Positions 33,602 to 57,737 of a stretch of 64,000 bases of DNA are shown piece after piece. Made by a program: the position numbers and the translations under genes. Location: positions 380,744 through 444,743 of the forward strand of contig SSNU01000109.1 in NCBI GenBank assembly GCA_012064415.1, written 5' to 3'. Numbering within the stretch: position 1 is the stretch's first letter; the number at the start of each line of letters is the position of its first letter. The notes below the pieces were generated by a model. It was given only the letters and a program-made list of their open reading frames with translations. It made no database searches and was not told where the DNA came from. Source of the stretch: Gyrodactylus bullatarudis. Lineage: Eukaryota > Platyhelminthes > Monogenea > Gyrodactylidea > Gyrodactylidae.

Positions 33602-36562
33602 TTAATTCTTCCATGAGTTATGGACTTTTTCTAGGTTCTGTTGAGCACATGTTGACATATTGAGGGCCGGACACATCTTTTTCAGTTTGATAATTGAATC
33701 GTCCTCGCCCATGTTAAGACAAGAGAGGCCGGATAACGTGAGATATGTGTGGATAGGATCTAGAATAGTTTAAAAATAAAATTTTCAAGTCTAATTTTAG
33801 GCAATTTCTCAAATAAAACCATTTTGTAAGAAGAATAAAATACATGAGATTAAAGATATGAATTGCTCTAAACTATAATAATAAACTTGACACCTCAATT
33901 TATACCGCCACCATACTTAAGACCCTAAGAATCAAATCCTACTTCCTTCGGAAATTTGTACATGTGCCAGAATTACAATATTTGAAGCAATTCAATGGAT
34001 ACATTTTGGATCATCATCAGACGAAGTATTAATCTTTGAAATCGACAAAAGTTTTGAGCTCAAAGGCCTAATTTTGGCCAGATTTAATTTTTTCGGAAAT
34101 ATTCAAAAAAATCATCTTTTACATGACCATACGGGGAAAATGTTGAGTTTTTTGTAAAAATATTGAATTCACATCTTCATGTCAAATAGGTTTATGTAAC
34201 CTGTTTGCGAGCATAGTTGGAAAACTGAAACCCTTCAATACTTTCGATCTTGTTTTTGACCATATTTATAGAAAGAAAACCAGATACCCTGTTATCATCT
34301 ACGCTCTTCAAGAGACTTTACAATCCCTGCACTCTCTCAGATATAGATTTCAATTAAATTTTAGTATTTTCAAAAGTCAGAAAATATCCCAGATTGTAAA
34401 GGTCATTCCAGAATTTCAGTACCAGACAAACATGACTATTTTACTAATTTATTTTTAATAAAAATTATTTTTGCAATGCATACATCTCAAGATTAATATT
34501 ACAATTAAGAGGGAAAGAGATTAACTAACCTGGGAATCCTTCGGGAAGTTTAGAAAACGCATGAAGCTTATCATAGTATGCGGTATTTAGAAATTCCACA
34601 AGTCTTTTCTTTTCAATCAACTCTGGATGCCCAAGCATGCTAAGACTGGCTCCAATCCAGAAAGTGTAACAGGAATCATCACGCTTATTAGTTCTTCCAT
34701 GAAGACCACCAGTTTGAAGGGAGATAAGCCAATGAATAAGACGATTTTTTCGTTTAGAGTTTGGCGGTAACAGCTCATCGAGGATATCCAACAGAAAGGC
34801 TGATGATATGGCACAATAACTGATTCCGGCGTGTGACTCTAAATGCTTTGCTTGCCCAAAGCCGCCTTCGTATGACTGATTTGGAAAATAAATAAGGTCA
34901 AAAATCTCCACCAACTGTAAATTCAATTTGTATCTCAATTCCCTTCATATTCCCATATTGCAAAGCTCAAGATTCATTACGCCAACAATGAGGAAAATCC
35001 ATAATAGTTTTCACCTATGGCGATTTTAAAATTTATGCATGTGGAACAACTTTCCAAACGAAAATAAATAATTTTGCTTATCAATGGAATCAGATTTCTG
35101 GAATAAGGTTCAGACACAAGAGATATTAAATACAAAATCTCATAATTCCATTAATTTTTGTTTAAATAATGGTCGTATCTGTTATAATTTTTCAGCCGAT
35201 GAGGTTGAATAAAAGTTTATTCTACTTATTAGTGTCCCTTAATACTGGGGGGAATTGCATTTTAATAGAAAATAAATATACCATGCATTTTATATTTTAG
35301 TATGGTATATTTCATGAAGAATTACAGTAAATATTCCGATTTTCTACTCTGAAAATAAAATTCTTCATTGTCGAATTACTTATGAGTAAGCACTGATAGC
35401 TAAATTTAGTTTAAAGTTAAAAACTGTTGATAGATCGTCTCTTCCGCATACGATTTGTACCATACTAGCTCACTAAAGATTCCAGATAACAACAATATCT
35501 TAGCTCGTCAATGTTTACCCCCAAGACATTCTCATAATTAGAAATGGCTAAAAATTTCGAGTGAGAAAGAAGAAGATTCAGCTAATAAATAAAGAGAAAA
35601 ACAGTAAATATATAGGTAATTTAGATATAAACAGAATAAACGAAAACAAACAAGTCATCCTTAGATAAAGGGAGTGAGCAAAAGATTTGAAAACAATATT
35701 TTCATCATAATTATAATGCAATTTGCGTAGGATAAAATACGAAAGAGAAGAATTTGATTCAAGTCATAATGACAATGAGTCATTGAAATGAGAAGAACAG
35801 AATGAAATCAATATTAATCCTAAAATGTATTTCCCTAATCAAGCCCATAAATGATTTATCAAAACATTCCCATTAAAACTGTGAAAATAAATAATTACAG
35901 TGTCAGTAAATAGAAAATTATTTCTTAGAGTTATTCAGATTTCAAATTGTAGAGAAATTTGGAAACTCACAATAATACTCTCGAAAAAACTGAGAATTTT
36001 CTTTCTATCAAATATACTAGTATCTCCAACAATATAGGCGGATGCAACGGCTGAATAAATAAATCTGGCGTCATGCTCTGGACAGAAAATACTGGCTTGG
36101 TAATTTCCCGGAATTAACTTGTGTTCGAGAGCTTTGAGTCCATTCAAAAGCTCCTTACGATTTATTCTTGACAAATCATCTCCAAGGATTACAAGAATAG
36201 ACAAAGCAGTGTATGTCATTGTAACATGACTAGTGTCATATGTGTGATATTCCTTAGGAGACTAAAAAACTTGAAACGATCAGACTTACATCAGAGAATT
36301 TACAACCGCAATTAAGAGAGCCTGTAAATCCTGATCGTTTACCATTAATGATCTGTAACGAGTAAACATAGTCGATTATCTCTCGTTTCTCAAGTTCATC
36401 CACCTCGCCCAGAATATCATAACCAGCTATTGCAAAGTATAAAATCATAATCCTAATCTTGAGAATAAAAAATTACTTTGAATGATCAAAGGCTGAAAAG
36501 TTTTCCGGCATTATATGCAAAAATCTAGAGAAATATTTTAACAGTCCTTTTTTATCAAACAT
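33602..36562 (-). CDS. PGGT1B: protein geranylgeranyltransferase type I, beta subunit
   Basis: Catalytic beta subunit that, with the FNTA alpha subunit, attaches geranylgeranyl to CaaX proteins such as Rho GTPases in the cytosol. There are five exons: 36477-36562, 36290-36452, 35971-36261, 34530-34875 and 33602-33759. All four GT..AG introns keep frame and give 347 residues (human about 377). Introns are 24, 28, 1095 and 770 nt. Prenyltransferase repeats are clear: MTYTALSILVILGDDLSRIN in exon 3, GGFGQAKHLESHAGISYCAI and GGLHGRTNKRDDSCYTFWIG in exon 4. The zinc ligands are present as the Asp and Cys of DDSC and the His of DPIHTYL. The N-terminus is shorter than usual. Its start codon lies 62 bp from the divergent gene at 36625. 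The intron of 770 nt holds a possible LINE fragment. Confidence 0.95.
34201..34458 (+). pseudogene. possible LINE endonuclease fragment in a PGGT1B intron
   Basis: An 85-codon open frame without an early ATG, on the strand opposite PGGT1B. It includes VIIYALQETLQSLHSLRY, which resembles the D-I-I-x-L-Q-E-T block of APE-type LINE endonucleases, and an upstream GKLKPFN-like segment. It is preceded at 34150-34195 by a fold-back terminus. The resemblance is modest. Confidence 0.35.
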
Positions 36563-36624
36563 TTTTTGGATTCAAAATAAAATCTATTTTAAACACCAAC
36601 ATTGTGGAATACTGTTAAAATAAC
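36563..36624. promoter_or_regulatory. 62-bp divergent intergenic region
   Basis: Only 62 bp separate the start codons of PGGT1B (minus) and the 36625 gene (plus), so one short AT-rich region must serve as promoter and 5' leaders of both. No TATA or other core element is obvious. If the second ATG at 36655 is used, the gap is 92 bp. Confidence 0.6.
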
Positions 36625-39600
36625 ATGTTTACATTGTTCGGAATTTTGAAAAAAATGTCTGTTGAAGATTCTCTAGTCAAAATTTTAATCAATCCTTGTA
36701 ATTATAATGAATCTCTTGACGATACTCTTCTGAATCGTCTGGCTTCTTGTATTTTGTGCGAAAAAAATCATTTGGAGTCTTTTGTAGACGTATCTTGTAC
36801 ATCTCAAAGCTTTCAAACGCTATCTAAACTCCTGGAAAACTGCACTATCGATAGTGAGAATTTTCATTTTTGCTCAATTATTCATATTTTCTTTATTCTT
36901 TTTATAAAACTCAAACTATCTAAGGAACTAAGAATAATTTTGGGCAAATTAGATTTTAATTTCGTCATAGAAACATTTCTCAGAAAATACCACAACCATG
37001 ACCTTTCAATGTTTGTCAAAAATTTGGACTCGAAATTACTTGATGATAACTTTGCAATTGATATTATGAATGTAGCCCATGGCCTCTCTTCAGATCTCGA
37101 TCCAGAGAAATTAATCCATGAGAATAATTATGCATTCTTTCTTAAAACTCTTCGGACGAAATCCTTTGAAAATTTTCAAAAAGTAATCAGATCCAAGGAA
37201 AAAATGCCTGATGAAATCAAATCATTCTTTGCGCATAACTGCAACGATGAAAAGTTGGCCATTAATGAAGTAATACCGTCGCTCAAAATTGCTTTTCAAA
37301 TTCTCCATTATTGCGACTATACTAAAAGTCTTGTGGAATTTTGGCTTAAAATGATTGAAATAAAGATTGAGCAAGCCTCGGATGAGTTGAGTCATTCTCT
37401 TGAGCTAGAAAAGTGCTTTAACTGGATTAACCAAATAGATATTCTTCAAGCGATGCGAAAAATAACCTACTTACCAGTAAAATTCAAAGCGGAAAATATA
37501 TTCCTCTCAAAAAATACAAAGATTATCAAATTATTCATGAAACTATTCAAGTATTTACGCAATCAAGACTTGGCGGAAAATTGTCTCAAGATAAACTTTG
37601 ATTGTCTAGTTAATAATTTAGAAAGTGAAAATTTCAAAATTCTCCTCGAATATTCTCAACTGTCTGGAGGTTATGATGACTTGATGCATAAACTGTCCAC
37701 TCTAATCAATGATGAACTGGATAAGGAAGAGCCTCGGACTAGCCTTTTTTATGAGATTGTCAACATGGCCAAATACGTAACATCCCCGGAGGAACATGTC
37801 AAAATGTTATGGAATTTAAACGCCAAATTTTACCACAAATTATCCCTGGACCACTATCGTCTTCCATATGTTCAGAAGAATGTTTTCCTCGAGGGAATAT
37901 TTAGACATGACATTGATTTGGTGATTAGTACTATGGACATAACGTTTTTGTCTTATTATACTGGATCTTGTATTAGACTTTTAGATTTTGGATCACTATT
38001 CTACTTCTTTCTTGTCAGCCTCTTGTCGGCCATGATTAACGAGAGGAACTGCAATATGACCTACATGAAATTCATCCTTGATTTTGACTGCAATGAAATC
38101 TTTTCCGACAGTAACGAGTTTCATTTAGCTCGAAAGGTCCTGATTCACATTAAAGGGGTGAGATTTTGATAAACTACTTGCAAGTAAACCAAAAAAATAG
38201 AATGATGAAAATTCAATTAATGTTGAAATTGATCTAAAACATCTAGATAATAAAATTCAAGGTTTTTTTGAGCTTAGCTGAAAATGTATTATTTTAATAC
38301 CCTATCTTTGAAATAATAAACTTTATAACTTTGAAGCTTGATGCGATAATGAAAAATTTATTGTTTCAGAACAGAGGGCATTTTTCAGGCTCAAGTGATA
38401 ATAGGACGGGTGAAAATGGGGTCTAGATGTTTTTTTCTAGTTCTAAAATTCTGATGGCGCAATTTTGCGCTGATCAAAAATATATTTGAAAAAAATTGGC
38501 TGCCTGTAAGCTGAGATAATGATCAAAAATTTTCAAAATTTCGAAAAACGCCTCTCAAACTTTTGCTATTTAATGAAAGATAAAAAACATTAGATTAATA
38601 AATTTTATACCATCTGAAAGAAGAATAAATTTTAAACGTAAAGGTTCTATTTTTATTTATCCCAAAAGGTTTTTTTGAGAGAAAACCGAATTTTTGAGCC
38701 AGATTTTCTGAAAAATTTGCTATTTCTTCTCTACGGCTCGTTTCAACTGTCTAAAAACTTTTTTTTTCAAATCCCCACCAGGGTAATGATTAAAAAGTTA
38801 AAATGTATGACTCTAATTTATCGCCAAACATGATAATAATTAATAATTGCATGTATTCAGTGTTTATGTAGTTTTAAGTCATTAGTTCCCTCATGCGTGT
38901 CGCTCCCCTAGAGAATATTGATAAATCTTTTTATTTCATGATGACTAGTTTATCCCTTTAGTCAATAATTTAAAATTATTATCGAATCAGCTTTGATTAA
39001 TTGCCATCTACGATGACTTCCCACGATGATTTTAATACTTTTGCAGTCTGAAATAAAAAAAATTGTTTCTTCTTCCTTGATAATTTCATCAGTATTGTCT
39101 CTGATGAGAATCCGCTTTTCCAATTTATTAATTAACCAACTTTATTTCTCAACTGGAAATGATTAACAAAAACTATACCCATTCTATTAATCTCTTGGAA
39201 TAGGCAAAGATCTCAGCTTTATTCTTCTTCAAATAAGCGATATACAAATTCAAAGAAAGTTGATTATTCTCATAAAGTAAGTTCTGTTTAAAACGTTTTT
39301 TTGAAAGCCTAAAAAGTTATAGATCAAAAGTAATCATACTAAAGCTTGAAAGATTTTGCTTCAGAAATCTAATGACTAAGCCTCTGGCTGACATTCTTTT
39401 ACGCTTAAAAAGACCTCTTTATTGATTGTTGTAAGGGTTTGAGACACTAATTAATAATCAAGAAAAATTTATTTGAAAAATTATCTATAATATTTTGAGT
39501 ACTGTAATAACTATATAGTTAACCGTTTAGTTGCTTTAGATTTTGAATGCAATCATGTTTTTCTATAATTTGAAATCAGAGCTTATAACAAGATTATTAA

Positions 39601-47167: not shown

Positions 47168-47589
47168 TCAATTTTGGGGTTTTTTCTTGTTCAAAACTGG
47201 ACAAGGACTCGCGAATTCAGGGTTACTACAAAATGTTGTATTCAAAGCTTCATTGAGCCATTGCGATGGTGTATTCTTCTCGAGGTATTTAATAAACTCT
47301 TTTTCGAATTTCTTGATATCTTTCTTCTTTTGCTTGTCGTCTTTAATTTCTCGTCGTTTCTGGCCAATTATTGAGACTTTGCATGCCTTCTTCAAGTCAC
47401 GATGCGTGCAATATCTTTTTTGTATCATTTTCTTGAAACCTCTTGACAAAAAGGCGAGTTCCTGGTGAAGTTTTTGATACTTTAAAGTATCTGTAACTGG
47501 GAAAAAGTAAATCAATCTATTTCCCACTTACCCTCATCACAATTCATGATATAGAGACAGGAAATCAGAAAAATAGCTAAAAGTTTCAT
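47168..47589 (-). CDS. secreted four-cysteine protein, paralogue 1
   Basis: Member of an unrecognised secreted family. Exon 1 (47532-47589) encodes the signal peptide MKLLAIFLISCLYIMNC. A 35-nt phase-1 intron (47497-47531) follows, then exon 2 (47168-47496) to the stop, 128 residues. Cysteines fall at 49, 58, 109 and 118, giving C-x8-C-x50-C-x8-C-P, with SIIGQKRRE after the second and a Lys-rich helical stretch between. Two disulfides are likely. There are no membrane segments beyond the signal peptide. Both exon lengths equal those of paralogue 2 (58 and 329 nt), showing recent duplication. An ATATCAATATAAAA box lies about 40 bp upstream of the ATG. Confidence 0.8.
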
Positions 47590-47625
47590 GTCGAAAATTC
47601 TTTGAAAGCCCTTCTGAAAGCATAG

Positions 47626-47640
47626 ATTTTATATTGATAT
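47626..47640 (-). promoter_or_regulatory. TATA-like box shared with the neighbouring paralogue
   Basis: ATATCAATATAAAAT on the minus strand, 37-51 bp before the start codon of paralogue 1. The neighbouring paralogue has ATATCAATTTAAAAA in the equivalent place (49005-49020), so this is likely a duplicated core promoter. Confidence 0.45.
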
Positions 47641-48550
47641 CTCTATAAATTTGATTGGCTAGAGGGTTTTTGGCAAATCACAGTCCATAGAACTTTTACA
47701 TTCTCAATAATTATTAATCCTTCTCTACTTGCATTGTCAGATCGACAGTTCTGGTTTAACTGAAGAACAACACGTGGGTAGTTTTTATTCCAGTGAAGAA
47801 TTTTCCAATACGAATACAATACGGAGTAAGTCTTGTTCTTTGTTTATTTTAAAGTATTTTTAGTAATCTTTCTTGAAATCTCTAGGGGCATAAGATTTTT
47901 CAATTGGGTTTTTAGAACTTGTAAAATGATTGATATACTTTGAAAACCTGTAATTTTTAATTGCAAAAATTATATCAGGCATCAAGTGAACGGAATTTCT
48001 TGCTGAATATATCCCAAAGTGGCTGACTATATTGCAAAAAAAAGACTATACATTTAGTACTAAAAACTTATTCAGCAAAAAAACCAAAATTTTTTAAAGA
48101 ATAATCATATTTTTAAATGAATTATTTAGCGATGTTGACTTTGAAATTGTCAACAAAAATGATTTTTTTATAATTCAATTGGAATGTTGTAGAAAAACTA
48201 TATAAACTTTATTTCTATCGATAAGGAATCTGGAACACAGACAACCTTTCTCAAAAGCCTCTTCCAGACGTTTCGGTACTGAGATAGTCAAGTATCATCT
48301 GAATTTTGAAGAGTTTTTCAGATCTGGACCAATAGGAAGGTACTTCAAAGACCAATTTAATACGGAAACGTCTGGATGAGGTCACTTTGACAAATACCTA
48401 TTGAAGATTTCAAAATAGTTCTAGTATTATACTTTTATGTAGAGTTAAGCCTTATCACTGAACGATCAGTTATTGTAACAAGAATTGAGTATTACTTGAC
48501 AAGAAAACTTTATTAGAACAAAATTTGAAATGATTCGAAATTCTTTGAAA
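47641..48550. other. intergenic, one dispersed repeat
   Basis: At 48250-48300 the text AAAGCCTCTTCCAGACGTTTCGG repeats that at 41390, and a nearby inverted part (GAAACGTCTGGATGAG near 48370) gives a loose fold-back. No further cluster member is detectable in this 0.9-kb spacer. Confidence 0.4.
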
Positions 48551-48979
48551 TTATTTGATCTTCATGCGGAGAGTTTTTGTAGCCTCTGGACATAGCTTGC
48601 TAAACTCTGAGTTGTGACAAAACGTAGTCCTTATTTTGCTAGTTAACCAATTCGAACTATCTTTGCCAGCAATGTAGCTGGAAAACTCCTTTTCTGTTTC
48701 ATGAATCTCTTTTAGTTTATCTGCGTCAATTTCCCGTCGTTTCTTGTCGATCTCATCATCTCGGCAGGTGTACTCAATTCTGAAATTCTTGCAATATATT
48801 GCCTGAATATATTTTATAAAGTCTCTAGATAGAAATTCCAAAACCGAAGTCAATTTGTGATATTCATTGTAATCCATCTCTGAAAACAGATTTATTAGAT
48901 TTCAGAAACCAAATAAGTTACCATGATCAGCTGAAGCTAGAGTTATAATGACTGTTAGAATAATTGCTGAAAGGAGCAT
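48551..48979 (-). CDS. secreted four-cysteine protein, paralogue 2
   Basis: Same gene plan as paralogue 1. Exon 1 (48922-48979) carries the signal peptide MLLSAIILTVIITLASA, a 42-nt phase-1 intron (48880-48921) follows, and exon 2 is 48551-48879, giving 128 residues. Cysteines at 49, 58, 107 and 116 give C-x8-C-x48-C-x8-C-P. The IIGQKR motif has changed to EIDKKRRE, so this is the most diverged motif in the set, while FLSRDFIKYIQ and RTTFCHNSEFSKLCP keep the family pattern. It is probably secreted. Function unknown. Confidence 0.8.
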
Positions 48980-49004
48980 TTTTCCGAATGAAAAACCATA
49001 CCAA

Positions 49005-49020
49005 TTTTTAAATTGATATA
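49005..49020 (-). promoter_or_regulatory. TATA-like box of paralogue 2
   Basis: TATATCAATTTAAAAA on the minus strand, 26-41 bp upstream of the ATG, matches the paralogue 1 box except for two bases. Inferred core promoter. Confidence 0.45.
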
Positions 49021-49071
49021 ATTTAGTCAAATTTTTAAGGTACGTGTCGAGAAAAATGGATCAATAACTGC

Positions 49072-49260
49072 TTAAAATAATTTGATAGATTTTTTTAGGT
49101 TTTGATTAATTCTATTTCTAATTTTCTGAATATGTTCTCTGACATCTATTGAGAGGAAAAAGATTCTTTGAGTCATAAAACTGACGGTTATGAAGCTATA
49201 ATTGTAGTTGAAAAATCTAAATATTTCGCATAGATTTGGGACTACTTCAGATTTTTCCAT
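49072..49260 (-). CDS. candidate small protein, 62 residues
   Basis: Unrecognised. An ATG in a strong context (GGGACCATGGAAAAA) opens a 62-codon frame to TAA with ordinary amino-acid composition. It has a helical Tyr/Phe-rich middle (FRFFNYNYSFITVSF) and a basic C-terminal helix (REHIQKIRNRINQNLKKS). There is no signal peptide and no cysteine pattern, so it is not a member of the cluster it sits in, between paralogues 2 and 3. A single-exon frame of this length in AT-rich DNA could be chance. The start context is the main support. Confidence 0.4.
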   Translation of the reverse strand: MEKSEVVPNLCEIFRFFNYNYSFITVSFMTQRIFFLSIDVREHIQKIRNRINQNLKKSIKLF

Positions 49261-49906
49261 GGTCCCATAAAAATTTTTGAATAATTTTATTTAAAAATTT
49301 TTTTTGAATTAGTTACGGATTTTCTCACATCTGAATTCAACAGTAGGGATAAAGTTGAAAGACGCGTTTGAATGCTAGAGGTATAACTCTAATAATTATT
49401 AGTATTATTTTTTTAAAGTAATATATTTATTTTATTTTTGATTCCAATTAAAAGTACAAACAAATTTTTATGCAAAATATTTAACTGCAAAGAAGAAATT
49501 ATTTTTAGAAATTTTCAAATTATTTCTTGAGTCTTATAATACTTTTGTTTATCCCTTTTCAATTGAGAAAAAGATTCAATAAACCATTCGAAATTATTTT
49601 TGTTTTTCAGATTTTTCTAAAATTGATACTTTTAGTTATTCGTATTGGCAATTGATGCAATTTCTTTACTGGTGTTGATTCTTATTTGGTCTGCTTCAAA
49701 AACTCAAATTTACTGATCAGAATATTTGATGACTTGGATTTCTCACTGTAGCAATAAAAATTTTTTCAACTTGATATCATGCCTTAACGAGAACGTCTTT
49801 TATATTAAAGTAACAGATAAATACTCTTTATTAAAAGCCAATTATAATTTCATTTATAGTTTCCCTTCAAATGTATTTTTTGTATTGACAAATAAATTTT
49901 CAAGTC
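49261..49906. other. no gene seen
   Basis: AT-rich spacer between cluster genes. The frame at 49726-49929 on the plus strand is not recognised. Confidence 0.3.
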
Positions 49907-50300
49907 TTATATCGGACAGTTTGGTGTAAATTCTTGTCTGCCGCAGAAATCTCGGTCAACTGACATTTTGAAATACTCAGAGAATGAATCGAAACTTTCT
50001 CCAATTTCAGCCGTGAAGGATACTGCAAAATTGTCAATCTCTATCATCCTCTCAGGGCTTAGTGTGTCACGCTGTTGGCCAATAACGGTCTTTTCACATG
50101 CATCATTTATATCTCTATCTGAACAGGAAATAGTCTGTACTCTTCTCCTGAACTCATTCGAATAGAAGGGGAGAAATCTGTGCAAATTCTGTAAGAGAAT
50201 TATCTCCTTTTCAGCTATAAAATGAAAATAATTTTAAAGACTCACTTTGAGCAGCTGCGTAAGAGATGGCGATAAGACAGAGGAAGAAAATCTGCTTCAT
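49907..50300 (-). CDS. secreted four-cysteine protein, paralogue 3
   Basis: Exon 1 (50246-50300) encodes the signal peptide MKQIFFLCLIAISYAAAQ. A 31-nt phase-1 intron (50215-50245) leads to exon 2 (49907-50214), 120 residues in all. Cysteines at 49, 58, 109 and 118 keep the exact C-x8-C-x50-C-x8-C-P spacing, and KTVIGQQRDTLS is the motif after the second. The protein stops right after the final CPI, so the C-terminal tail of paralogues 1 and 2 is missing. It lacks the Lys-rich middle of paralogue 1 and is acidic there (ERMIEIDNF, EIGESFDSFSEYF). Its start is 185 bp from the divergent two-domain gene, which may share control sequences. Confidence 0.8.
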
Positions 50301-50451
50301 ATTTAATTTCTTGCGTTGGTAAAAGTCCTTTTTTCACTTGACTCAACTACGCTCATGGAAAATTTCAGACGCAAAAATGTGCAGTTATAGAGTTTTTCTG
50401 TTTTGCAAATATCTCATGACTCTAGATAACTTCGGACATTACAGAGAAATA

Positions 50452-50457
50452 TATAAA
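50452..50457 (+). promoter_or_regulatory. TATA box of the two-domain gene
   Basis: TATAAA in the context AAATATATAAACAACC, 29-34 bp before the ATG at 50486. The short distance implies a very short 5' leader. Confidence 0.45.
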
Positions 50458-50485
50458 CAACCTTACTTTTTAATTGTTAACAATC

Positions 50486-51250
50486 ATGAAGTTTTTAATT
50501 CTTCTACTAGCATTCACTTTAACCTTGGCAGATATTGTCCAAGATGAAGATAGACTCATCAAAGACCTTAATGTTCAAATTCCCTACCTTTCGAGTGAAT
50601 TCAGAATAGACATGCAAGAAGATTTATGCTTAGACAAAGATATGTCCCTCGCTTGCAATTTCAGTATTATCGGACAAAAAAGAGATAATGCAAGTGATGT
50701 AAAACTAAAGGAAGTCGAAGAGTTTGAGAAAGGTTTCAAGACAGAATTTGACGAAAAATTTATGAAATTCTCAAGAGGTTTCAAGACAGCAGTTACCAAC
50801 ATTTTCTGCAGTGTTACACAATTCGGTCCGAACTGTCCAGTGAAAGGTGTTACTAAAAATGAAACTGAAACTGAAACTACAACAACCACCAGAAAGCCCA
50901 GAGATCCTAAATTTATTGCACTAGAAGAAGATTTGATCGCAAAGAATCAACTTCAACTTACTTACTTTGGAAAAGATTACAAGCACAACATGCAAGATCT
51001 TTTCTGTGTTGGTGGAAAGGGTGTCGAATGCGCTGTTGGCATCATTGGTAGTCATAGAGCCTATGTTCCCAAGGCAAAACAACAAGAAGCTGATGATATT
51101 GCCAAGAAAATTTGGGAGGAAGTTCAAAAGAATCAGAATGATCTGTCCGATTGGTTTGTTACAGAGATGCAAGGAAAGTTCTGCAATAGTGGTGAGATAT
51201 GCGAGGTTGGTAAAGGGGATCATGCCAAAATCAGGCCTCCAATGAATTAA
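50486..51250 (+). CDS. secreted protein with two four-cysteine domains
   Basis: Intronless, 254 residues. The start is ATG at 50486 (a longer frame to 50474 begins with TTG). The signal peptide is MKFLILLLAFTLTLA. Domain 1 has Cys 48, 57, 108 and 117 (C-x8-C-x50-C-x8-C-P) with FSIIGQKRDN. A linker, KNETETETTTTTRKP, looks flexible and possibly O-glycosylated. Domain 2 has Cys 174, 182, 233 and 239 with VGIIGSHRAY; its last pair is shorter and it lost the final Pro. Two N-x-S/T sites are visible (NFS, NET). The phase-1 intron of the paralogues is absent, so it was lost or the gene was retroposed and then internally duplicated. The family is unknown to me. Confidence 0.85.
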   Translation: MKFLILLLAFTLTLADIVQDEDRLIKDLNVQIPYLSSEFRIDMQEDLCLDKDMSLACNFSIIGQKRDNASDVKLKEVEEFEKGFKTEFDEKFMKFSRGFKTAVTNIFCSVTQFGPNCPVKGVTKNETETETTTTTRKPRDPKFIALEEDLIAKNQLQLTYFGKDYKHNMQDLFCVGGKGVECAVGIIGSHRAYVPKAKQQEADDIAKKIWEEVQKNQNDLSDWFVTEMQGKFCNSGEICEVGKGDHAKIRPPMN

Positions 51251-51683: not shown

Positions 51684-53396
51684 TCAAGAGTTTACAAAAC
51701 TTTTCTTTGTCCTGCCAAAGCTATGCTCGAGGGAGTATTTTGAAAAGTCATTCAGGTTGGGAATTATCACAATGTTTGGGTCGATTCTCTGGATTAGTTG
51801 GCTTATATTAGACTGTGTTGTTAGTAGACGATTCCTTGCAATCTTTTTAATCTTTGGATCTCTATCGATGGATTTCAGTTGAATTTGCTCCAGCACTTCG
51901 AGTATTCGAATTCTCTTTTTTCTCCTCTCCAGCAAAAGATAATTAGAAATATACTTGCGCTCAGCTGAAATGAAATTCTTTATGATAATATTTCTCCCCT
52001 TTATTCCGCAGATGGCCTCAACGCCCTGAAGAATGATTCTATTCGCTTCGGAATTGATCTCTGAAAAGAGACTCAGACTTTCTGGCTTCTTGGATTCGAT
52101 CCTGAGGAGTTTCATCAAGACTGGCAAAGTTACTCCGAAAAAGACTATTGTAAACAGTATTGTGAATAGGGTTAGGTCCTTCATAATTTCTTGTAACTCT
52201 TTTCCATTAACTGGGAAATTTTTTTCATTCACCATATTGGCTAGAGAATAGGATATGGCTCCGCGTAGACCCCCATACACTAGAATTATACCCTCTTTGA
52301 AGCTGATAAAGTGAAAATCGAATTGTAATGCATTGAGAATCGGTGTTAAACAGGATATTGTTAGAATCCTTGACGAGAACACAATTAAAATAAATGAGCC
52401 AAACAGTTTAATGTGCTTTCCAATGTTGGCGAAGCAGCCGGGCATTTCCTTCCCGAGAAAAAGGAAAATTATACCCTCTGCTGTTTTCGCAAGGTCCCCA
52501 ACGATACTTCGTATCATATAAATTGATTTTGGCTTCATGTTCTTAAAGGCATATGACATTTGCATAAGTCCACAGCCTATGAGAGCTACAATGCCAGACC
52601 AGCCAAAAAACATTGCCGAGTAATAGGCACAAATAGGAACAAGCATTTGGACAATAATTTCCGAGTCGTACTCAACTCTTGAAATGATGGAGGATACTAG
52701 GCCATAAACTAGACCAATTACAAGCCCTCCGAATGAAATAACAAAAAAGGCTATGAAACACAATAAAAAATCAATAAAGTTAAATTGATCTTTTGTATAA
52801 TGCTTGACTATTTCATACAAAGTCACTGATATTGCATCGTTGAATAGGGATTCGCCGAATATTAAAAAATAGAGCATTTTATTCACTTTTGCTTGATTGA
52901 ATATGGCCAACACAGCGACTGGATCAACAGCTATAATTATTGAAGAGATGAGACGACAAAATCCAATGTCAGCACCTTCAAGTTCGATATAACCTATTTT
53001 TAACATCATCATGAATGCAGAAAGAATTAAAACAAAGTTGGATATTGTTCCCAAAATTGCATAGCTCAGGGTTGCAAAGACAACGTTTAAAAAGTCCCCA
53101 TCATAGAGTGTATACGCTGAATCTAAAATTATCGGCGGAAGAAGAATGTGAAAAAATATATTTGGACTCAAGTTCATGTCCACTGTCAATTGGCCTGATA
53201 TTGAGCCAAATGTTATTAATCCAAGGGAAAAAGGAACATATTTTGTTATAATATTGAATCTTTCATAAATCCATTCGAAAAATATCAAGCCGAATGAGAA
53301 AAGTAAAACATTCAGCACTCTTAAATATTCAATGTATTTGTAGAATACAAGTTTATCCTTTTCAAAAAAGAAGTTTACTGTATGATTCCTCATCAT
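51684..53396 (-). CDS. Na+/H+ exchanger (SLC9/NHE type), intronless
   Basis: Monovalent cation/proton antiporter of the CPA1 family, exchanging Na+ (or K+) for H+ across a membrane. The single exon starts ATGATGAGG at 53396 and encodes 570 residues. About 12 hydrophobic segments span residues 25-430. Family signatures are HILLPPIILDSAY (83-95, amiloride-region), AVDPVAVLAIF (156-166), FGESLFNDAISVTLYE (180-195, the core Asn-Asp), EGIIFLFLG (307-315) and YGGLRGAISYSLA (374-386). The cytoplasmic tail (about 430-570) is short and basic, lacking the long calmodulin/CHP-type tail of vertebrate NHE1. It resembles organellar or NHE8-like forms, but I cannot assign the paralogue. An intronless ORF of this size is unusual among the spliced neighbours. 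Confidence 0.9.
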   Translation of the reverse strand: MMRNHTVNFFFEKDKLVFYKYIEYLRVLNVLLFSFGLIFFEWIYERFNIITKYVPFSLGLITFGSISGQLTVDMNLSPNIFFHILLPPIILDSAYTLYDGDFLNVVFATLSYAILGTISNFVLILSAFMMMLKIGYIELEGADIGFCRLISSIIIAVDPVAVLAIFNQAKVNKMLYFLIFGESLFNDAISVTLYEIVKHYTKDQFNFIDFLLCFIAFFVISFGGLVIGLVYGLVSSIISRVEYDSEIIVQMLVPICAYYSAMFFGWSGIVALIGCGLMQMSYAFKNMKPKSIYMIRSIVGDLAKTAEGIIFLFLGKEMPGCFANIGKHIKLFGSFILIVFSSRILTISCLTPILNALQFDFHFISFKEGIILVYGGLRGAISYSLANMVNEKNFPVNGKELQEIMKDLTLFTILFTIVFFGVTLPVLMKLLRIESKKPESLSLFSEINSEANRIILQGVEAICGIKGRNIIIKNFISAERKYISNYLLLERRKKRIRILEVLEQIQLKSIDRDPKIKKIARNRLLTTQSNISQLIQRIDPNIVIIPNLNDFSKYSLEHSFGRTKKSFVNS

Positions 53397-53863
53397 TAAC
53401 CATAAAAATGGTCATCGAGTAAACTTTGAATGTGTAAACCTCAATGAAGTTGTTTGTAAATTTTTTAAATGAATTTTCCTGATAATCTTACAATGAAATT
53501 TTGAATTTTTTTCTCAATTGCAAGCTTGAAAATACATGCCATATTATGCGGCGTACATTATACACCTGTCAAAAAAGTTAAAATTTCACTTATGCCATAT
53601 CTTTTATGGTAATACTTTTCTCCACTTTTCTGAGGGTTTTTAAAAAATCTAAAAATTCAATTATTTCGTCAGCTCAAAATTATTTGCCTCAGTGTAAATT
53701 TTAAATTTTACTAAGAAATTATATTGCTACTTGCTAGTGACAACGAATATTTAAATTATGATTTATAATAAATCATTTATTGCATTTACTAGAATCTGAA
53801 AATATTAAGAATTGAACTAGAAAAGCTATCAAAATTTATTTTATAGAGATAAGTTTTACTATT
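53397..53863. other. no gene seen
   Basis: AT-rich spacer between two minus-strand genes, with nothing recognisable. It should contain the NHE promoter. Confidence 0.4.
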
Positions 53864-54186: not shown

Positions 54187-55071
54187 ATGATACAGCAAAT
54201 TTCTAAAAAGATACTCGAGATAGAAAATCTGAGTAAAGATCCTGCAAAAGTCAAGAGTTGTATACAATTCTTGAAAAACAAGATAGCAGAAAATGAGAAG
54301 AAAATAAATGATCTCACCTCTAAAATCATTAACCAAGAAATTTACTGGGGCAGTAAGTTACTTATAGATAATTTATCTCCAGAAATTCAATATGTGGTTC
54401 CTGAAATCAAAAAGCAACCTGTAGTAGTTGTTAAAGAAGAGCCAAAGCCTCAGGCTAAAGTTGAAACTGCTCCTAAAGTAGCTGAAGATAAAAAGGCCAA
54501 GACTGCGAAGCAAAATGATTCAAAGGTAAAAGATAAGGCACCCGCTCCAGCACTCCCTCCAGGAAGTGTTTGTGTTTCTCAATTGAACTTCCGTATTGGT
54601 AAAATTATTGAAATCAGCAAGCATCCCGATGCTGATTCACTTTACGTGGAAAAAGTTGATTTGGGAGAAGCTACCCCTCGTACAATTGTCAGTGGTCTCG
54701 TGAAATACGTATCTAAAGAGAAACTCGAATCTAATTACTTTGTCTTCCTTTGCAATTTGAAGCCTGCCAAGATGAGAGGAGTTGAATCTCAAGGTATGCT
54801 CATGTGTGCAAGCGATGCTGAAGGTCAAGGAGTTGAACCCCTAATGATTAAATGCGATGATGTTAAACCTGGCGCTAGAATAATAATACCCTCAAAGGAC
54901 GGTCCTCCTGAAGCAGTTCTTAATCCCAAAAAGAAAATATTTGAACAACTTAAACCAATGATTAGAACATCCAAGGATGGTATTGCATGTTTCGATGGTG
55001 TCCCATTCATCGTGGAAGGTCATACAAATAGTTCAATCTATTCTAATTTGAAAGATGTTCAAATATCTTGA
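54187..55071 (+). CDS. AIMP1: AIMP1-like tRNA synthetase complex protein
   Basis: Scaffold and tRNA-binding cofactor of the cytosolic multi-aminoacyl-tRNA synthetase complex. Single exon, 294 residues (human AIMP1 is 312). Residues 1-55 form a heptad-patterned coiled coil (IENLSKDPAKVKSC, NKIAENEKKINDLTSK), which in animals binds arginyl-tRNA synthetase and AIMP2. Residues 75-125 are a Lys/Pro/Ala-rich linker. Residues 128-294 form the EMAPII domain: an OB fold with LNFRIGKIIEISKHPDADSL and KPAKMRGVESQGMLMCAS, plus the EMAPII-specific C-terminal extension (LNPKKKIFEQLKPM, PFIVEGHTNSSI). AATAAA at 55108 is the probable polyadenylation signal. Alternatives such as tyrosyl-tRNA synthetase are excluded because no catalytic domain precedes it. 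Confidence 0.95.
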   Translation: MIQQISKKILEIENLSKDPAKVKSCIQFLKNKIAENEKKINDLTSKIINQEIYWGSKLLIDNLSPEIQYVVPEIKKQPVVVVKEEPKPQAKVETAPKVAEDKKAKTAKQNDSKVKDKAPAPALPPGSVCVSQLNFRIGKIIEISKHPDADSLYVEKVDLGEATPRTIVSGLVKYVSKEKLESNYFVFLCNLKPAKMRGVESQGMLMCASDAEGQGVEPLMIKCDDVKPGARIIIPSKDGPPEAVLNPKKKIFEQLKPMIRTSKDGIACFDGVPFIVEGHTNSSIYSNLKDVQIS

Positions 55072-55750: not shown

Positions 55751-57737
55751 CAAGATTTTCACAAATAAGGCCTTTATTTCGGGCATACTCATCAGTGTGA
55801 TACATGCCATATATATAAGGTTTTTAGAAAGAAAATGAACATCGAAAGGTTATTGGTTAAAATATCATTTTACATTACAATTGGCTCAAGCCTGTTACCA
55901 GGTGAGCACAGTGTAGTTTTTCATATTGTTAAAATTAAAATTGGTGCTAATTTTTCCATAATTATGGGTCTCTTTTTATAACAGAGTGTAAGTGTAAAAA
56001 TAGTAAATTAAATAAATGATCATAGAGGTCGTTCTTCATCGGTTTAAGGATTTCGACGAGCCACTTCGCTATTTTGCTTGTTGCCGCTGCAAGCATTCAC
56101 TTATGGACACGTTCGACTTTGTGGATAAGATCCAGAATATAAACATGACAGATCAAACAATGTTGTCTTTCGATGTGGAGTCTCTATTCACCAACGTACC
56201 ATTAAAGGAAACAATCGATTTTGTATGTGACTACGTGAAACAGAACCAATCAAATTTCATTATACCATCAAACTGGGTAAGAAAACTGCTAAATCTCTGC
56301 TGTAAAAATGTTGTGTTTAGCTTCAACGAGGAAATGTATATACAAAAGGATGGAGTCGCAATGGGCACGCCATTAGGACCACTGCTAGCTGACTTATTCT
56401 TAGCAAAACTGGAGATGTCGTCTTTGAAGCCCTCAATAGATAAGTTCAATCATTACTACCGCTACATGGATGATACATTTATAGTAGCTAATAATAATTT
56501 GTCCATTGAAAACTTGTTAGCAGAATTCAATCAAGCTCACGGGAAGATCAAATTCACGATGGAGAGAGAAACAGAGAACAACCTTCCCTTTCTAGACGTC
56601 AACTTATCAAAGAATCCGGATGGCTCAGTGAAAAGAGGCATATACCGTAAGAACACATTCACCGGAAAAATGCTCAACTACAATTCATTTATACCAATGA
56701 AGGTGAAACGAGGATTGATAACAGCTCTAGCGAAAAGAACCCGCAGAATAGTTTCAGAATCAGCATGGGAAGAAGAATTGGAAAAATTGACCGCCATCTT
56801 CGTTTCAAATGACTACCCTATTAACTTGATAAACGATAGGCTATCAAAGCTCTACACCCCAAGAAGGAAGCCCAAAGAACAAGAAGGAGAAACTGCTTAC
56901 TTGAGCCTACCATTCAAAGGGGATAAAGCCGCAACAATTTTCCAAAAGAAAATTAATGAAGTCTTCACCCAAACGTACCCAAACGGAAATCTCAGAATTA
57001 CCTTTCAGACACAGAAAATGTTCACTAGCAATGCAAAGGACTCAATTGACAAGATGAAGCAGAGCAACGTAGTGTACAAATTCTCATGTCCGTGCAAATC
57101 TGAGTATATTGGCCACACAATAAGACGTCTCGAAGAGAGGATCAATGAACACCTTCACACGGGTCAGACCGCAATACGAGAGCACCTCAGAACATGTAAG
57201 GCAAATGTTTCGTCCCAAAACTTTGAAATAATCTATAAACCAACTAGAAACAATGTCTACTTGTTGAAAGCTGCTGAAGCATACTTGATCAATCAACAAA
57301 AGCCAAACCTATGCGTACAAAAGAATCATGTAAAGCCCCTGAATTTACCTAAGCCTAGGGAAAAAAAGTGTCCTTTGTCCCAACCCCCCTCCAGGAAGAG
57401 AAGGAAAATGGAAGTGGAAACTAACCAACAAATAACTGATTTCTACAGAACAACCCAATAATTATGATCATTTATTTAATTTACTATTTTTACACTTACA
57501 CTCTGTTATAAAAAGAGACCCATAATTATGGAAAAATTAGCACCAATTTTAATTTTAACAATATGAAAAACTACTCTGTGCTCACCTGGTAACAGGCTTG
57601 AGCCAATTGTAATGTAAAATGATATTTTAACCAATTAACCTTTCGATGTTCATTTTCTTTCTTAAAACCTTATATATATGGCATGTATCACACTGATGAG
57701 TATGCCCGAAATAAAGGCCTTATTTGTGAAAATCTTG
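55751..57737 (+). mobile_element. Penelope-like element with 273-bp inverted arms
   Basis: The left arm 55751-56023 and right arm 57464-57737 are near-identical inverted copies, starting CAAGATTTTCACAAATAAGG and ending AATAAATGATCAT at the inner side. Between them is one intact RT-endonuclease frame. The right arm is the natural 3' untranslated part. The left arm is an inverted duplicate of it, so the start codon lies inside the arm. The flanks GATG and AAAT show no clear target duplication. Near identity of the arms and the intact frame indicate a recent insertion. Confidence 0.9.
56016..57461 (+). CDS. Penelope-like reverse transcriptase/GIY-YIG endonuclease
   Basis: 481-residue protein of a Penelope-like retroelement, which primes reverse transcription at a nick. 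The frame opens within the left inverted arm. The N-terminal RT fingers of complete elements are missing, and it starts just before HSLMDTFDFVDKI. Blocks include LSFDVESLFTNVPLKETIDF (50-69), VAMGTPLGPLLADLFLAKLE (114-133) and the catalytic YRYMDDTFIV (148-157), then ENNLPFLDVNLS. The GIY-YIG nuclease with its cysteine finger, VYKFSCPCKSEYIGHTIRRL (about 350-369) followed by ERINEHL, marks the canimate Penelope lineage. A basic nuclear-localisation-like tail (SRKRRKMEVE) ends the protein. Lacking the N-terminal part, it is probably a 5'-truncated copy. Confidence 0.9.
   Translation: MIIEVVLHRFKDFDEPLRYFACCRCKHSLMDTFDFVDKIQNINMTDQTMLSFDVESLFTNVPLKETIDFVCDYVKQNQSNFIIPSNWVRKLLNLCCKNVVFSFNEEMYIQKDGVAMGTPLGPLLADLFLAKLEMSSLKPSIDKFNHYYRYMDDTFIVANNNLSIENLLAEFNQAHGKIKFTMERETENNLPFLDVNLSKNPDGSVKRGIYRKNTFTGKMLNYNSFIPMKVKRGLITALAKRTRRIVSESAWEEELEKLTAIFVSNDYPINLINDRLSKLYTPRRKPKEQEGETAYLSLPFKGDKAATIFQKKINEVFTQTYPNGNLRITFQTQKMFTSNAKDSIDKMKQSNVVYKFSCPCKSEYIGHTIRRLEERINEHLHTGQTAIREHLRTCKANVSSQNFEIIYKPTRNNVYLLKAAEAYLINQQKPNLCVQKNHVKPLNLPKPREKKCPLSQPPSRKRRKMEVETNQQITDFYRTTQ

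Follow-up and report, generated by a model that had tools for sequence, protein, structure and literature searches.

An apparently undescribed, lineage-restricted family of four-cysteine domain proteins in the monogenean flatworm Gyrodactylus bullatarudis

What do four neighbouring genes with a recurring four-cysteine domain encode in a fish parasite, and do they belong to any family described so far? The genes lie at positions 47168-51250 of a stretch of 64,000 nucleotides (nt) from Gyrodactylus bullatarudis (assembly GCA_012064415.1, contig SSNU01000109.1, positions 380,744 to 444,743 of the forward strand), which as a whole is called the window in the following. Monogeneans, which live mostly on skin or gills, rank as major ectoparasites of fish among the flatworms. 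Judged from sequence comparison, the genes apparently belong to an undescribed, lineage-restricted gene family of this monogenean. We tentatively regard their domain as an extracellular binding module that is restricted to the lineage and occurs in a secreted and a membrane-anchored form; it may serve protein binding at the host interface of the parasite.

The gene cluster and its four-cysteine domain

The first-pass annotation, a reading of the letters of the window, had placed four genes with five copies of the domain at these positions, and the gene models bear this out in coordinates and counts alike. The features of the cluster, with signal peptides and splicing as predicted, are:

47589-47168, minus strand: gene g1, 128 amino acids (aa), one domain
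47532..47589, minus strand: g1 exon 1, start codon and signal peptide (MKLLAIFLISCLYIMNCDE; gene model and hydrophobic N-terminus)
47497..47531, minus strand: g1 phase-1 micro-intron, 35 nt, GT...CAG (gene model)
47168..47496, minus strand: g1 exon 2, domain at ~47192-47488, C-x8-C-x50-C-x8-CP (gene model and domain profile)
48979-48551, minus strand: gene g2, 128 aa, one domain
48922..48979, minus strand: g2 exon 1, start codon and signal peptide (gene model and hydropathy)
48880..48921, minus strand: g2 phase-1 micro-intron, 42 nt (gene model)
48551..48879, minus strand: g2 exon 2, domain at ~48581-48871, C-x8-C-x48-C-x8-CP (gene model and domain profile)
50300-49907, minus strand: gene g3, 120 aa, one domain
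50246..50300, minus strand: g3 exon 1, start codon and signal peptide (gene model and hydropathy)
50215..50245, minus strand: g3 phase-1 micro-intron, 31 nt (gene model)
49907..50214, minus strand: g3 exon 2, domain at ~49910-50203, C-x8-C-x50-C-x8-CP (gene model and domain profile)
50301..50485, no strand: spacer of 185 bp between the head-to-head, divergent genes g3 and g4 (coordinates)
50486..51250, plus strand: gene g4, intronless, 254 aa, signal peptide, two domains and a Thr-rich linker (KNETETETTTTTRKPR; gene model)
50549..50845, plus strand: first domain of g4, C-x8-C-x50-C-x8-CP, four-helix AlphaFold2 (AF2) model with a predicted local distance difference test (pLDDT) of 90.6 (gene model and AF2)
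50927..51211, plus strand: second domain of g4, C-x7-C-x50-C-x5-C, AF2 model of four long helices and one short, pLDDT 77.1

By Kyte-Doolittle hydropathy all four window genes encode a hydrophobic N-terminal stretch, in agreement with the signal peptides assigned to them at first reading. If a secreted protein is taken as one with an N-terminal signal peptide and no membrane anchor, all four would be secreted, as judged by hydropathy alone. The micro-introns of g1, g2 and g3 each follow directly on the signal-peptide exon and are all of phase 1; this common feature had been noted before and is confirmed with lengths of 35, 42 and 31 nt. The short spacer between g3 and g4 is a possible shared control region.

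To follow the family beyond the window, the assembly of 77.3 Mb (471 contigs) was searched with seven family proteins as queries, and as the first candidates alone were scored all counts are lower bounds. The family comprises at least eight genes with nine domains on three contigs, namely the four window genes and two further gene pairs, here called C168 and C444. With g4 as the query g3 (E 5e-17), g1 (3e-9) and the C168 pair (~2e-5) are found, and the second domain of g4 has its best matches outside the window in the C168 pair. The g4 matches to g2 (E 0.14) and the C444 pair (0.05 and 0.1) are weak; these members are tied in by others, g2 to g1 at E 1.1e-17 and C444b to C168 at E 1.6e-13.

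The domain comprises ~100 residues and carries four cysteines in each of the nine copies, as read directly from the open frames. The spacing C-x8-C-x50-C-x8-C is present in three of the five window copies (g1, g3 and the first domain of g4), and a proline follows the fourth cysteine in four of the five. The spacing given in the first-pass annotation holds for these three and, with x48, for g2, while the last copy takes the exact form C-x7-C-x50-C-x5-C. The further claim of an identical spacing throughout cannot be upheld: the first two cysteines (C1 and C2) are separated by x7 in all four family genes outside the window, and C2 and C3 by x49 in two of the four. The motif described as IIGQKR-like is found in exactly this form in two of the five copies (g1 and the first domain of g4); elsewhere it reads VIGQQR, EIDKKR or IIGSHR. 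A profile built from eight domains scores all nine copies at ~113-120 bits; eight of the nine had been used to train it, and the ninth differs very little from one of these.

Within the genome the family domains are as low as 16-38% identical to the first sequence. In all five pairs counted the third codon positions differ more (0.63-0.68) than the first and second (0.33-0.48), which is an argument for coding constraint on the family frames.

Internal duplication and predicted fold

The domain is a tandem duplication of a ~50-residue unit of the form helix-C-x(7-8)-C, an observation that is new here and was absent from the first-pass annotation. The 16 residues before C1 and those before C3 are alike and follow the pattern (F/Y/L)-(S/G)-x-x-(F/Y)-x3-(I/V/M)-x3-(F/Y/L)-C, with exceptions in single copies. 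In the cysteine register the two blocks reach a mean BLOSUM62 score of +7.1, compared to −4.95 or lower at all 16 other shifts, and this score was reached by none of 20,000 column shuffles. If the cysteine is left out and the blocks are slid along the domain, the C3 block ranks the C1 register first in all eight domains and the C1 block ranks the C3 register first in six of the eight; C168b was omitted from these counts as a near copy of C168a. Comparison of the 30-column blocks around C1 and C3 by hhalign gives a local probability of 90%, a figure that is supporting rather than independent because the blocks were cut at the cysteines by the analyst.

A further hint comes from structure prediction. 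The best AF2 model from the five window sequences (pLDDT 90.6; predicted template modelling score, pTM, 0.81) has helices at residues 2-15, 18-28, 52-75 and 78-88, and agrees with the duplication in that a long helix is followed by a short helix ending at a cysteine, twice (2-15/18-28 and 52-75/78-88). For the second domain of g4 the same helix order is predicted, with four long helices and one short (pLDDT 77.1) and with the last nine residues below 50. Each half of the domain would most likely close its own loop by one disulfide (C1-C2 and C3-C4).

A search of the PDB with Foldseek returned best E values of 7.6 and 4.2 for the first and the second domain model, and among viral models nothing better than E 1.4 was found for the first. 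The stable fold supposed at first reading has support in so far as a compact domain of four helices is predicted (pLDDT 90.6). No significant match to it was found in the PDB, and the modelled fold is possibly new. The repeated conserved domain, the shared intron position, the coding-like substitution, the confident predicted fold and the internal duplication together argue that the family genes are real.

Further members, relatives and surroundings

Positions noted for the family outside the window are:

C168, 78078-78701, plus strand, and 82879-83499, minus strand: family genes, inverted pair
C444, 62929-63183 and 63748-67668: stretches for which similar exons with predicted transmembrane helix and tail were noted downstream of the two C444 genes

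The C168 genes are single open frames that lie tail to tail, ~4.2 kb apart. Each encodes an N-terminal hydrophobic stretch, the domain and then a segment of strong hydrophobicity (3.1 and 3.3 over 19 residues). Among the eight proteins C168b has the weakest N-terminal stretch (1.22 over 12 residues compared to 2.3-3.2 elsewhere). In the C444 genes a phase-2 intron after the domain is needed to reach the transmembrane exon (56 and 3,683 nt, donor GTTAGT and acceptor TTTAG in both). The 3,683-nt intron was placed by the parallel with the other C444 gene alone, and without introns both frames stop soon past the domain. The downstream exons encode a hydrophobic helix and a tail LLNE(K/R)F...YGDE, 54% identical over the 54 residues of helix and tail. 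The hydrophobic segments of C168 and the transmembrane exons of C444 suggest a soluble and a membrane-anchored branch of the family: C168 and C444, four of the eight genes, appear to encode type I membrane proteins with the domain outside the membrane. The first-pass description of secreted proteins fits the window cluster and would not extend to these four genes. A frame at C444:60001-60321 (plus strand), close to the C444 pair, resembles the C-terminal part of a serine protease of the trypsin type, with a GDSGGP motif.

In the C168 pair a block of 319 bp over the domain is 99% identical (3 mismatches), and within 1.5 kb on each side the flanks have no nucleotide match; nor is there a DNA match between the copies in the signal-peptide and membrane parts. 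The proteins are 77% identical over residues 4-168 and 68% in the full alignment. From the sequences, the patch is best read as a recent gene conversion between the inverted copies. Diversifying selection had been suggested for the cluster; divergence in the five paralogue pairs counted (third positions 0.63-0.68) is too great for a meaningful ratio of nonsynonymous to synonymous substitutions, and in the C168 pair a near-identical patch is seen instead.

The domain had not been recognised at first reading, and the searches point the same way, with no described family found in Pfam, NCBIfam, the PDB sequences or the protein database. No Pfam family reached its cut-off in the six proteins scanned (of eight). 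The best NCBIfam match has E 0.017 (one member each) and the best match among PDB sequences E 0.14, the listed PDB matches being weak and to proteins of other kinds (ISWI, MOP23B, OR280). Two profile searches of a database of ~5.8 billion proteins, which score only candidates with shared 5-residue words, accepted no protein, be it from 214 candidates (E up to 1) or from 3,190 (E up to 10). A control search with AIMP1 yielded 2,940 proteins; the best 120 of them include matches in Cichlidogyrus, flukes and tapeworms, so that proteins of these groups are present in the database. No relative of the family was detected in them by the word-based profile search, and in this sense we call the family lineage-restricted. 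As no gyrodactylid name is among the best 120 of the 2,940 AIMP1 matches, the proteomes of close relatives may be missing from the database.

Two known kinds of domain were compared with the family and do not fit. One of the six scanned proteins (C444a) matches the ML domain (PF02221) at 18.2 bits and E 0.0034, below the cut-off of 22.7, and in the other five nothing matches ML up to E 10. The ML fold is a beta sandwich; the two models, both of window domains, are helical, and the weakly scoring C444a is a protein from outside the window. Saposin-like proteins have six cysteines in three disulfides, compared to four cysteines in each of the nine family domains.

The window lies at the end of its contig, and its bins have 28-37% G+C. 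Directly adjoining the cluster is an intronless Na+/H+ exchanger frame of 575 aa (51684-53411, minus strand, Pfam E 1.9e-45). An AIMP1-type gene at 54187-55071, near the cluster, has its best database match in Cichlidogyrus casuarinus (48%), followed by flukes and tapeworms, and a tree of 16 proteins joins it to Cichlidogyrus with support of 99/99. An open frame of 481 codons at 56016-57461 (plus strand) combines a reverse transcriptase with a GIY-YIG domain, a pairing that we take to be that of Penelope-like elements. An exon at 34525-34944 (minus strand) encodes a prenyltransferase alpha-alpha toroid and presumably resembles the farnesyltransferase beta subunit, and an open frame of 516 codons at 36619-38169 (plus strand) has no Pfam match at E 0.01. 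The mitochondrial contig has 14,926 bp. Compared to the fly protein, its COX1 reads AAA as Asn at two of two positions, AGA as Ser at two of four and as Arg at none of four, and TGA as Trp at six of eight, as in flatworm mitochondria; the gene order, read by eye from partial output, presumably fits parasitic flatworms.

Possible function of the family

In the reading that we prefer, a unit of ~50 residues would have been doubled in tandem to give an extracellular bundle of four helices and ~100 residues, as predicted. Such a unit would consist of a helix and then a short helix with an aromatic residue or Leu, Ser or Gly, x-x, an aromatic residue, Leu or Met, x3, I/V/L/M, x3, a mostly aromatic residue and Cys, with the second Cys mostly 7-8 residues on. 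The window cluster would provide soluble proteins of one or two domains, exported via the signal peptide, and in the two further gene pairs a transmembrane helix at the C-terminus would hold the same domain outside the membrane. Hydrophobic and cysteine positions that stay conserved amid variable sequence could provide a scaffold for the binding of other molecules. The likeliest use in an ectoparasite would be protein binding at the interface of worm and host (tegument or gland secretion), where the worm might release soluble forms as ligands or decoys and display anchored forms as the matching surface proteins. The proteins might also act as effectors or in a venom.

For an ectoparasite the host interface is the most probable site of action, and a role inside the worm is nearly as likely: the same family might serve cell-cell contact, gametes, the embryo or the building of the tegument. 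Four of the eight genes look membrane-anchored and the transmembrane exon and tail are common to both C444 genes, as expected of receptors or adhesion proteins, among which one ectodomain often has soluble as well as anchored versions; yet no relative was detected among the proteins of Cichlidogyrus, flukes and tapeworms in the database, which would be unusual for a conserved internal function. Somewhat unlikely, and compatible with any of the functions discussed here, is a descent from a known secreted family with so much divergence that the sequence no longer shows the link. The low identity among the domains of this one genome means that outside relatives may be beyond the reach of a protein search that needs shared 5-residue words, but neither Foldseek (E 7.6 and 4.2 at best in the PDB) nor Pfam in the six proteins pointed to such a family.

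Small, helical, exported proteins with disulfides often carry lipids, and C444a has its weak ML match; it is nevertheless improbable that the proteins are small carriers which take up lipids or other hydrophobic compounds in a cavity of the bundle, as ML domains are beta sandwiches and the models here are helical. The first-pass annotation had named antimicrobial and venom-like families; cationic antimicrobial or venom-like peptides that lyse membranes deserve very little credence. The signal peptide, the cysteines, the clustering and the strongly basic g1 (isoelectric point 9.8) would suit them, but a single domain of the nine is cationic (+13). The other eight have net charges between −10 and 0, which leaves a cationic antimicrobial unsupported, and the domains are ~100 residues long and half of the genes look membrane-anchored. 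Also improbable, and the most far-reaching idea, is that a new fold arose from the doubled helix-C-x8-C unit as a monogenean invention, with membrane-anchored receptors on the worm's own surface and, to match them, secreted proteins of one or two domains that bind the receptors' partner on the fish host, either in competition or by capture.

Several points weigh against a binding module at the host interface. In the duplication test g1 and g2 fail in one direction (ranks 7 and 4), and hhalign forced to a global alignment of the C1 and C3 blocks gives 21% only. The five AF2 models of the first domain spread over pLDDT 76.5-90.6, those of the second domain of g4 over 57.2-77.1. The probable gene conversion in the C168 pair makes two copies more alike and speaks against simple diversification, and the family found is small (8 genes). 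The lack of relatives carries limited weight given the word-based choice of candidates and the gyrodactylid proteomes that may be absent. The predicted genes could be silent or spliced otherwise than modelled, and the proteins could serve the worm's own development, reproduction or gut.

The kind of system to which a host-interface module would belong, taxon-restricted secreted helminth proteins, is well known, and the family itself is apparently undescribed. It shares with schistosome micro-exon gene products and cestode antigen B the signal peptide, the small size, the clustered paralogues and the lack of relatives found outside the lineage. It differs by its duplicated helical domain with four cysteines and by the apparently membrane-anchored paralogues, so that the likeness is one of kind and no relation in sequence or fold is claimed. 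The TGF-beta mimic (TGM) family of Heligmosomoides polygyrus (PMC10516467), a parasite family of several genes built from modules, is similar in outline and serves here as an analogy for modular evolution alone.

Few monogenean genomes are available. In PMC12677651, table 1 gives Gyrodactylus genomes of 67-91 Mb with 31-39% GC, six monogenean assemblies besides the study's own are counted for December 2024, and the many nominally unique genes of Gyrodactylus kobayashii are suspected to reflect sparse data and problems of annotation. The present family has no detected relatives, and several lines of evidence support its genes as real. It offers a candidate new fold for structure determination and, in its small, defined domain, a means of asking whether secreted proteins specific to the lineage of these worms act on the host.

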